64,000 bases of DNA from Streptomyces globisporus (GTDB taxonomy: Bacteria; Actinomycetota; Actinomycetes; Streptomycetales; Streptomycetaceae). The position numbers were made by a program, and so were the translations under genes. Below are positions 3,731 through 6,236 of the stretch, piece after piece. Where the stretch lies: assembly GCA_014649555.1 (NCBI GenBank), contig BMTG01000001.1, positions 930,001 through 994,000 of the forward strand. Reading direction: 5' to 3'. Below the pieces are notes generated by a model. That model saw only the letters and a program-made list of their open reading frames with translations. It did not search any database and was not told the origin of the DNA. Within the stretch, counting starts at the first letter, position 1; each line of letters begins with the position of its first letter.

Positions 3731-5317
3731 TCACTCCCACTCGATGGTCCCCGGCGGCTTGCTCGTCACGTCGAGGACGACGCGGTTGACGTCGGCGACC
3801 TCGTTGGTGATGCGGGTGGAGATCTTCGCCAGCGTGTCGTACGGCAGGCGCGACCAGTCGGCCGTCATGGCGTCCTCGGAGGAGACCGGGCGCAGCACGA
3901 TCGGGTGGCCGTAGGTGCGGCCGTCGCCCTGGACGCCGACCGAGCGGACGTCGGCGAGGAGGACCACCGGGCACTGCCAGATGTCGCGGTCCAGGCCGGC
4001 CGCCGTCAGCTCCTCGCGGGCGATGGCGTCGGCGTCGCGGAGCAGGTCGAGGCGGTCCTTGGTGACCTCGCCGACGATGCGGATGCCGAGGCCGGGGCCG
4101 GGGAACGGCTGGCGCTGGACGATCTCCTCGGGGAGGCCCAGCTCCTGGCCGACCATGCGGACCTCGTCCTTGAACAGCTGGCGCAGCGGCTCGACGAGCT
4201 GGAACTCGATGTCGTCGGGGAGACCGCCGACGTTGTGGTGGGACTTGATGTTGGCGGTGCCGGTGCCGCCGCCGGACTCCACCACGTCCGGGTAGAGCGT
4301 GCCCTGGACGAGGAAGGCGACCTCGGGTCCCTCCTCCTGGAGGATCTCCAGCTGGGCCTGCTCGAAGACGCGGATGAACTCGCGGCCGATGATCTTCCGC
4401 TTCTCCTCGGGGTCGGAGACCCCGGCGAGGGCGTCGAGGAAGCGCTTCTCCGCGTCGACGACCTTCAGCTTCGCGCCGGTCGCGGCGACGAAGTCCTTCT
4501 CGACCTGCTCGGTCTCGCCCTTGCGCATCAGGCCGTGGTCGACGTAGACGCAGGTGAGCTGGGAGCCGATGGCCTTCTGGACGAGCGCGGCCGCGACGGC
4601 GGAGTCGACACCGCCGGAGAGACCGCAGATGGCGCGCTTGTCGCCGACCTGCTCGCGGATGAGGGCGACCTGCTCCTCGACCACGTTGGTGGTGGTCCAG
4701 TTCGGCTCGATGCCCGCGCCGCGGTAGAGGAAGTGCTCCAGGACCTGCTGGCCGTGGGTGGAGTGCATGACCTCGGGGTGGTACTGGACGCCGTAGAGCT
4801 TCTTCTCGTCGTTCTCGAAGGCGGCGACCGGGACCACGTCGGTGGAGGCGGTGACCGTGAAGCCCTCGGGGGCTGCCGAGCAGGCGTCGCCGTGCGACAT
4901 CCACACCGGCTGCTCGGTGGGCGTGCCCTCGAAGAGCGTCGAGCCCGCCTTGGTGACGTGCAGCGGGGTACGGCCGTACTCACGGGCCCCGTTGTCGTCG
5001 ACCGTGCCGCCGAGCGTCGTCGCCATCAGCTGGAAGCCGTAGCACATGCCGAAGACCGGCACCCCTGCCTCGAACAGCGAGCGGTCCAGGGACGGCGCGC
5101 CCTCGGCGTACACCGACGAAGGACCGCCGGAGAGGATGATCGCGCGGGGGTTCTTGGCCAGCATCTCCGCCACCGGCATGGTGGACGGGACGATCTCGCT
5201 GTAGACCCGGGCCTCACGGACGCGGCGGGCGATGAGCTGGGCGTACTGCGCGCCGAAGTCGACGACGAGGACCACGTCGGCCGTGGCGTCGGGGGCGGCG
5301 GGGGGTGCTGCTGGCAC
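3731..5317 (-). CDS. guaA: GMP synthase (glutamine-hydrolysing)
   Basis: A 528-residue enzyme that converts XMP to GMP using ATP and the amide of glutamine. The N-terminal class I amidotransferase domain (about 15-210) has the nucleophile cysteine in [12 protein letters not shown] and the histidine/glutamate in [10 protein letters not shown]. The ATP-pyrophosphatase domain has the PP-loop [13 protein letters not shown]. The C-terminal dimerisation domain ends in the canonical PPGTIEWE. Length and ending match GuaA from other bacteria. Together with guaB and guaB3 further along, it makes this window a guanine-nucleotide hub. It is read away from the aromatic leader region at 5445-5667, so its promoter lies in the shared 5.3-5.45 kb gap. 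Confidence 0.98.
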
Positions 5318-5444
5318 GGGGCGGCCTTCCGGCGGTGGTGAAGGGGGTCGGTTCTTCCGATTCTACCGGCCGTGCGCGGACCCTCCGCCGGGCCGGTGGC
5401 GGGGGTGCTCCCGCCCTGTCGTGTCTCACGATCCGGGCCTCGTT

Positions 5445-5474
5445 TTGTCGGGGCGACGGAAACAGGGCCATACT
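5445..5474 (+). promoter_or_regulatory. Promoter for the leader peptide / chorismate mutase transcript
   Basis: TTGTCG at 5445-5450 and CATACT at 5469-5474 are separated by 18 bases, a reasonable match to a housekeeping sigma-70 type promoter. The expected transcription start falls at about 5480-5482, on or next to the ATG at 5482, so the leader peptide would be translated from a leaderless mRNA. This is inferred from sequence only. Confidence 0.55.
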
Positions 5475-5481
5475 GTCCGCC

Positions 5482-5553
5482 ATGCGTCAGCACACGACCT
5501 TCCTCTTTACCTATGGCATCCGGCCCGCCGGCTGCCATGGTCGTGCTGCTTGA
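5482..5553 (+). CDS. Putative Phe/Tyr leader peptide (23 aa)
   Basis: A 23-codon frame beginning MRQHTTFLFTYGIRP lies 114 bases upstream of the chorismate mutase gene. Its sixth to eleventh codons are ACC TTC CTC TTT ACC TAT, with two Phe and one Tyr. The TTT and TAT codons are rare in this GC-rich genome, which suits a regulatory read-out. A 26-base hairpin (5513-5538) begins inside the TAT codon, and a strong terminator-like stem follows at 5578-5603. This is the layout of a ribosome-mediated attenuator sensing Phe or Tyr charging. There is no Shine-Dalgarno sequence; the predicted transcript starts at the ATG. The peptide itself probably has no function after synthesis. Confidence 0.6.
   Translation: MRQHTTFLFTYGIRPAGCHGRAA
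5513..5538 (+). promoter_or_regulatory. Pause-type hairpin within the leader peptide
   Basis: ATGGCA (5513-5518) pairs with TGCCAT (5533-5538) and CCGGC (5520-5524) with GCCGG (5527-5531), leaving a single mismatch and a two-base loop. The 5' arm would be covered by a ribosome stalled on the TTT or TAT codon. An antiterminator pairing is not obvious: the best candidate is GGCCCG (5522-5527) with CGGGCC (5583-5588), which would need the left part of this hairpin open. Confidence 0.45.
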
Positions 5554-5577
5554 GCTACTGACAAGCAACGTTCCAGG

Positions 5578-5603
5578 CGCCCCGGGCCAGCAGGCCCGGG
5601 GCG
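5578..5603 (+). terminator. Attenuator terminator stem upstream of chorismate mutase
   Basis: A perfect 11-base-pair GC stem (CGCCCCGGGCC with GGCCCGGGGCG) around the tetraloop AGCA ends 64 bases before the chorismate mutase ATG and is followed by TTCTG. Its place between a short aromatic-residue leader frame and the structural gene suggests conditional termination. Confidence 0.6.
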
Positions 5604-5667
5604 TTCTGCGTATCCGGGCCCGTTCGCCCCGGGGGCGTCACCGACCGACCCACCGGGAGTCACCACC

Positions 5668-5970
5668 ATGAGCAGCAGCACCACCGCCACGGACACCACC
5701 ACCGCCACCGGCGCCCACACCGACGAGGCCGCCGCCCTGATCGGCGGGGCCCGGGAGCGTATCGACGCCCTGGACGACCGGATCATCGGTCTCGTCCAGG
5801 AACGGATGGCCGTCTCGGCGGTGATCCAGGAGGCCCGGATCACCTCGGGCGGCCGCCGGGTCAACCTCTCCCGTGAGACGGCCGTGCTCGGCCACTACAG
5901 GGACGCGCTGGGCAAGCCGGGCACCGCGCTGGCGATGACGCTCCTGGAGCTGTGCCGCGGGCGGGTCTGA
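5668..5970 (+). CDS. Chorismate mutase (AroQ class)
   Basis: A 100-residue all-helical chorismate mutase that converts chorismate to prephenate, the branch point to phenylalanine and tyrosine. The motif ARERIDALDDRIIGLVQERM (about 30-49) is the typical first helix with its active-site arginine. RRVNLSRETAVLGHY supplies the second catalytic region, and LLELCRGRV closes the domain. A Thr/Ala-rich N-terminal tail of about 20 residues precedes the domain; no signal peptide is visible, so it is the cytoplasmic monofunctional type. GGGAG lies seven bases before the ATG. It is the only gene behind the candidate aromatic attenuator and is followed by a strong terminator. Confidence 0.92.
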   Translation: MSSSTTATDTTTATGAHTDEAAALIGGARERIDALDDRIIGLVQERMAVSAVIQEARITSGGRRVNLSRETAVLGHYRDALGKPGTALAMTLLELCRGRV

Positions 5971-6236
5971 GGCCTGGTGGGCGGCGCGCGGACGGAACGG
6001 TTCTCCGCCCGCGCCGCACCGGCCGTATCTGCGTTCGGGGCCCGTCTCACCCGTACGGCGCGTGACCAGGAGCGCGGTGCCTTCGTTGGTCCTGATGTCC
6101 GTGCCAACCAGGGGCGGCATCGGTAGGAAACCACGCGTGGCTCCGCCGGGGAGTGTGACGTACTGCAGGTGCGTCGTGGGACCACGACCCGGCGTATGTG
6201 ACCGGTCCGCAGGGGACAGCAGCCCGGTCACCCCAT

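Follow-up and report, generated by a model that had tools for sequence, protein, structure and literature searches.

A probable leaderless Phe/Tyr attenuator in front of the chorismate mutase gene of Streptomyces globisporus

Background

The pheL leader of Escherichia coli possesses a Shine-Dalgarno sequence and a run of Phe codons. It precedes pheA, the gene for chorismate mutase-prephenate dehydratase, as outlined in the part of a review that treats it (PMC11802643). The operon headed by aroR in Corynebacterium glutamicum is described, in the corresponding passages of two papers, as being raised on Phe limitation via ribosome stalling (PMC11802643, PMC4046766), and the same part of the review states that it is unaffected by Tyr availability (PMC11802643). 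For Streptomyces lividans, short leaderless leaders with hairpins before amino-acid genes have been reported (trpL, leuL and ilvL; PMC8079986), and the eight S. lividans leaders given in the relevant excerpt of that paper include none for Phe or Tyr. Phenylalanine/tyrosine operons of Actinobacteria are reported, in the pertinent passage of a 2005 survey, to be preceded by no conserved RNA regulatory structure (PMC1262725). No Phe/Tyr attenuator in front of a Streptomyces chorismate mutase gene is named in the open-licence literature that we searched.

A sequence-only reading of the window, i.e. the whole stretch of 64,000 nucleotides of Streptomyces globisporus analysed here, had pointed to such an attenuator upstream of the gene for chorismate mutase (CM). 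Comparison with related loci supports this reading. The stretch is very probably (roughly 0.88) a ribosome-mediated transcription attenuator of CM of the classical four-strand kind, with a leaderless leader. The comparison covers the constraint on the reading frame, the Phe/Tyr codons, the hairpins 1:2 and 3:4 and the position before CM, all of which favour this reading; the start site, the 2:3 pairing, stalling and read-through are what we infer in addition.

Results and discussion

Organisation of the leader region

The features of the region are collected in Table 1. The product of the CM gene scored 122 bits against NCBIfam NF005894 (cut-off 73) and also matched Pfam CM_2; by CM protein, the relatives of this genome include S. 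rubiginosohelvolus (97%) and S. griseus (94%). The leader ATG follows the end of CATACT after 7 nt. Between the leader stop codon and the 11-bp stem lie 24 nt, and another 64 nt separate the stem from the CM start. A second GC-rich fold (5606-5660, -19.7 kcal/mol) lies between the terminator and the CM start. The guaA gene, encoding GMP synthase, runs leftward from 5317. Because guaA is divergent from the leader and CM, the stem apparently does not terminate any same-strand gene lying upstream, and its natural target is CM. The stretch from 5445 to CM is probably the head of one transcription unit.

Table 1. Features of the leader region and the chorismate mutase gene (window positions)
Feature	Position	Strand	Basis
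Candidate leader promoter: TTGTCG 5445-5450, 18-nt spacer, CATACT 5469-5474	5445..5474	+	sequence reading
Leaderless leader-peptide frame, 23 codons, MRQHTTFLFTYGIRPAGCHGRAA and stop	5482..5553	+	translation and conservation
Hairpin 1:2, starting within the TAT codon	5513..5538	+	pairing and covariation, 69 sequences
Small hairpin TGCTTG / CAAGCA across the leader stop, nested in the proposed antiterminator	5547..5567	+	predicted folds
Proposed antiterminator 2:3: 5522-5527/5583-5588, 5530-5532/5579-5581, 5534-5536/5576-5578	5522..5588	+	folds, duplex energies
Terminator 3:4, 11 perfect pairs 5578-5588 / 5593-5603, loop AGCA, then GTTCTGCGT	5578..5603	+	pairing and covariation
Likely Shine-Dalgarno sequence of the CM gene, GGGAGTC	5655..5661	+	read from sequence
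Chorismate mutase (CM) gene	5668..5970	+	NCBIfam NF005894, Pfam CM_2

A -10-like hexamer was located 6-7 nt ahead of the ATG in 137 of 146 CM leaders, and a TTG of the -35 type at a distance of 17-19 nt in only 74 of the 142 unique ones. A generic sigma-70 promoter scan of 5000-6200 gave no match; the promoter here is of the CATACT type. The starts had earlier been chosen with the -10 sequence in view; an unbiased count was obtained by searching for an ATG after the hexamer regardless of frame. Exactly one turned up in 137 of the 146 leaders, none in the other nine, and all 137 starts shared the frame of the Tyr codon, at six different spacings (24, 27, 30, 33, 36 and 39 nt).

On the 5' side of the -35 sequence the block GTCTCACGATCCGGGCC occupies 5423-5439; its form TCTCA..AT.CG recurred in 72 of 142 CM leaders and is possibly a regulator site. 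When GTCTCANSATNCGRRCC from 5' of the -35 sequence was tried as such a site, the own genome contained three occurrences with up to one mismatch against one for the reversed control. At the other two GTCTCANSATNCGRRCC-like sites in the own genome a script found no short leader, and the candidate was dropped.

Distribution of the leader and its coupling to CM

Within the genus, CM was detected in 147 of 150 genomes (among the matches listed). The leader was carried by all 30 Streptomyces loci first fetched, with a mean column identity of 88%, and from these loci the RNA model R1 was built. Among the matches listed for 200 genomes of the family, R1 matched 141 at E <= 0.01 and CM was found in 131 at E <= 1e-12; 126 of these 131 CM-bearing genomes had an R1 match. 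Of the five that had none, three from a single genus revealed a leader by eye, one having His for Tyr, and the remaining two, both of genus g14, encode a CM only 41-42% identical that was taken as a paralogue. In genus g14 no orthologous CM was found and R1 matches were weak (best 3.1e-5 among the matches listed); of the 15 family genomes with a model match and no CM, one was inspected (G318), and its locus L149, from this genus, proved to be a terminator only. Eighteen g14 genomes were checked, 15 of them without a CM match and three with weak matches only. Among 28 genomes picked mostly for having no clear leader match, 22 were without CM, three had a weak CM and three had both CM and leader. 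Leader and CM gene are thus present or absent together across the family.

R1 matches were counted in 17 of 17 genera sampled from the family, but true leaders were readable only in the 16 other than g14. Every one of the 146 CM leaders that were read had CM 3' of it on its own strand, at a distance of 130-391 nt from the start of the leader. With the leader pattern, which presupposes a Phe-like and a Tyr-like core, 154 of the 158 loci were recovered; at one locus with a model match and CM nearby (L075) neither the core pattern nor a later attempt found a leader. Loci L149, L155 and L158, together with 13 of 40 loci from a second model (R2, see below), were left out as terminator-only, and many weak model matches were of the same sort.

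The leader peptide and its control codons

The sequence-only reading had named a 23-codon frame with codons for Phe-Leu-Phe-Thr-Tyr, the rarity of TTT and TAT, a hairpin that begins at TAT and, between the leader and CM, a perfectly paired 11-bp stem. All four were found again (Table 1), the hairpin starting inside TAT. The control codons are Phe7 (TTC, 5500-5502), Phe9 (TTT, 5506-5508) and Tyr11 (TAT, 5512-5514); TAT is paired within the hairpin and TTT is unpaired. Both codons are rare in the 31 long ORFs of the window: of 300 Phe codons 2 are TTT, and of 318 Tyr codons 20 are TAT.

Among the 142 unique CM leaders the core Phe was encoded by TTT in 139 and the Tyr by TAT in 140, and from codon 2 through the Tyr 468 of 1395 residues (33.5%) were Phe or Tyr against a background of 4.3%; these counts are favoured by the way the leaders were found, with models and patterns based on the same core. 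Only three of the 1395 residues were Trp. Upstream of the F-x-Y core Phe and Tyr contributed 182 of 969 residues (18.8%), and 134 of the 142 leaders carried a further Phe or Tyr 5' of the core. In a retrieval by CM only, a leader was present in all 80 named records, the 80 top-ranking of 299 relatives: 78 fitted a core pattern of a similar kind and two were read by eye, with Ile replacing Thr in the core. Exceptions at the control Tyr were L161, where the codon is CAT (His) and hairpin-like arms were seen by eye, and a CAG in one of the 142 leaders. The expectation that the short frame and its Phe/Tyr codons would be conserved was thus borne out, by these counts as well as by the in-frame starts.

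Downstream of the Tyr codon the picture is different. Indels shifted the frame in 11 of the 142 unique leaders, and the hairpin was kept in all 11. In eight of them the C-terminus was replaced a few residues past the Tyr (RLPWSCCLSY etc.), in three the last codons only; two more leaders on the list of the indel script belong to other families and were not counted as shifts. A frame that is constrained before the Tyr codon and an RNA that is constrained after it are what attenuation predicts, and the leader frame is probably translated.

Hairpin 1:2 and terminator 3:4

Stems that covary had also been anticipated, and in an alignment of 69 leaders with less than 93% identity (A2) the terminator did so strongly and the hairpin at the Tyr codon modestly. 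In terminator 3:4, 98.4% of cells were paired and 34 two-sided changes occurred, compared with a shuffled mean of 6.4; every slid version scored lower. A generic scan of 5000-6200 for U-tract terminators gave no match, and the T run after the stem is weak or poor in Streptomyces. In hairpin 1:2, at whose foot the Tyr codon lies in A2, 94.0% of cells were paired and the covariation score was matched by none of 500 shuffles. Only two pairs changed on both sides, a number reached by 75 of 500 shuffles, and versions slid by three columns had higher covariation (0.114 and 0.079 versus 0.054), yet only 49-57% of their cells were paired. The small hairpin across the leader stop codon was seen in folds with a stalled ribosome and was weak when taken alone (mean z -0.75 versus shuffles).

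A candidate antiterminator

The antiterminator had been called unclear from the sequence. This still holds for covariation, of which the family alignment showed none column by column for 2:3, but a candidate pairing can now be drawn in 69 of 69 representatives, with the qualification that the duplex program always yields some pairing. We propose that the loop and 3' arm of the hairpin pair with the 5' arm of the terminator. When the RNA between the edge of a ribosome stalled at TAT and the last base of the terminator 5' arm was folded, the 2:3 pairing appeared in those folds that were listed among 35 folded. In the alignment 86.1% of the 2:3 cells were paired, which is no more than in shuffled columns (318 of 500 reach it); slid versions gave 29-52%. 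The core letters of 2:3 also belong to the other hairpins.

Strands 2 and 3 paired slightly better with each other than with those of other species (-16.9 versus -16.6 kcal/mol, 69 leaders, p 0.0085, kinship ignored). A permutation with 44 types from 102 sequences, with a longer strand 2 and with leaders of other families and of DAHP synthase included, gave -18.7 for own and -16.7 for swapped pairs, reached by 0 of 5000 permutations, kinship again being ignored. The clearest case is L202 with nine exact pairs (GGACTCCGG/CCGGAGTCC), and other clear ones are L101 (GGTCCGG/CCGGACC), L205 (GGACCCG/CGGGTCC) and L153 (CGGCCCG/CGGGCCG). In the weakest types (such as L125 and L131) contiguous exact runs were limited to 3-4 pairs.

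Proposed mechanism and alternative explanations

The regulation could work as follows. Transcription would begin at the leader ATG and ribosomes would load onto the leaderless 5' end. With ample charged Phe- and Tyr-tRNA the ribosome would reach the leader stop codon and hairpin 1:2 would re-form behind it, leaving the 5' arm of the terminator free, so that 3:4 would form and end transcription near 5604-5610. If Phe- or Tyr-tRNA were scarce, the ribosome would stall at TTC, TTT or TAT and cover strand 1. Strand 2 (5522-5536) could then pair with strand 3 (5576-5588) and block the terminator, and the polymerase would read into the gene for CM, the maker of prephenate.

It might be argued that a riboswitch or a protein-bound RNA governs the terminator and that the short frame is incidental, for nucleotide conservation in Streptomyces is very high and extends to unpaired stretches. 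In other genera, however, the stretch between the hairpins is poorly conserved and it is the start frame and the Phe/Tyr codons that are kept. Neither the window nor the 32 related loci that were scanned gave an Rfam match at gathering score, which likewise speaks against such an element, and we regard it as very unlikely. (A permissive Rfam scan of 5300-5700 returned eight weak matches, the best to a Burkholderia sRNA with 25 bits where gathering requires 112; they were taken as chance.) Even less probable is a nascent-chain arrest peptide whose conserved GCHGRAA end acts in the exit tunnel. The C-terminal residues are indeed conserved in most Streptomyces leaders, but C-termini differ in other genera and families, and where indels replace the C-terminus (8 of 142) or the last codons (three more) the hairpin stays.

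The least probable explanation is that amino acids exert no control at all, the region being an ordinary terminator with a relic frame or a leader RNA with a trans-acting role as a small RNA. Terminators with the core GCCCCGG are common here, and several model matches consist of terminators only. However, an ordinary terminator placed ahead of a gene and behind its promoter could do no more than silence that gene unless it were overcome, and the frame with its aromatic codons is kept across families. Attenuation by a translating ribosome is the reading that we prefer for the locus.

Leaders in other families and before DAHP synthase

Searches with R1 and with R2, a model of 61 sequences used at the level of the class, showed that leaders also occur in other actinomycete families (among the matches listed). 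When 40 R2 matches were fetched, 21 were located before DAHP synthase and six before CM; the remaining 13 were the terminator-only loci mentioned above. The enzyme was named DAHP synthase from NCBIfam matches that, for a query covering part of the protein, stayed under the full-length cut-offs. In total we read 29 DAHP synthase leaders, for example MQRNFWRFYGYRP, MRTAWSFWYGDGP and MRNRFFSYGDAPE, and eight CM leaders outside the family (FFYYG, SFFYG, KFFYG etc.).

The two groups differed in Trp. Up to the first Tyr-Gly or Tyr-Asp it was present in 26 of 29 DAHP synthase leaders; close kinship among many of these 29 makes the number of independent events smaller. In CM leaders Trp was found in three of 142 through the control Tyr and in none of six further ones anywhere in the peptide, i.e. 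in three of 148 (L077 and L156 are shared by the sets of 142 and eight; the Fisher test took 150 and ignored kinship). A Trp codon anywhere in the peptide was carried by 37 of the 142 CM leaders, often in the hairpin loop, and in 34 of these 37 only after the Tyr. As judged from the leader sequences, the set of codons as far as the hairpin matches the branch of the pathway to which the enzyme belongs. There is about an even chance that all these leaders represent one ancient leaderless aromatic attenuator of actinomycetes, common to CM and DAHP synthase, whose control codons were retuned by branch (Phe/Tyr for CM, Phe/Trp/Tyr for the first, common step) with the rare TTT and TAT kept to sharpen the response.

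In the S. globisporus genome itself, a script that covered approximately 480 nt 5' of each domain match found no Phe/Tyr leader for the prephenate dehydratase gene or for the two type II DAHP synthase genes. A Trp leader, MSTQKIQISIQNWWWTAHPAAR and stop, was seen in the same genome (L316, G000 contig C4, + strand from 2929). It too has the leaderless layout, with TAAGAT 6 nt ahead of the ATG and a strong hairpin after it, and a type II DAHP synthase gene runs divergently from it.

Comparison with known systems

Aromatic precursors feed many natural products in Streptomyces. Being read in 16 of 17 genera and tracking its gene, the leader is likely to be a control point of the Phe/Tyr branch in this genus. 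The natural series of leaders with FTY, FSY, FFY, FWRFY and FWY before two enzymes would allow direct codon-by-codon tests of attenuation.

In its short leaderless frame and its hairpins the leader resembles trpL, leuL and ilvL of Streptomyces, and the present genome contains a Trp leader of like layout. It differs from pheL-pheA of E. coli in that it is leaderless, uses Tyr in addition to Phe and precedes a stand-alone CM. Judged by its description rather than by its sequence, the closest known system would be aroR of C. glutamicum, which is likewise actinobacterial and, located before aroF, has a leader with Phe-Tyr-Phe. The two part ways in their target: aroR regulates a DAHP synthase, whereas the leader described here precedes CM.
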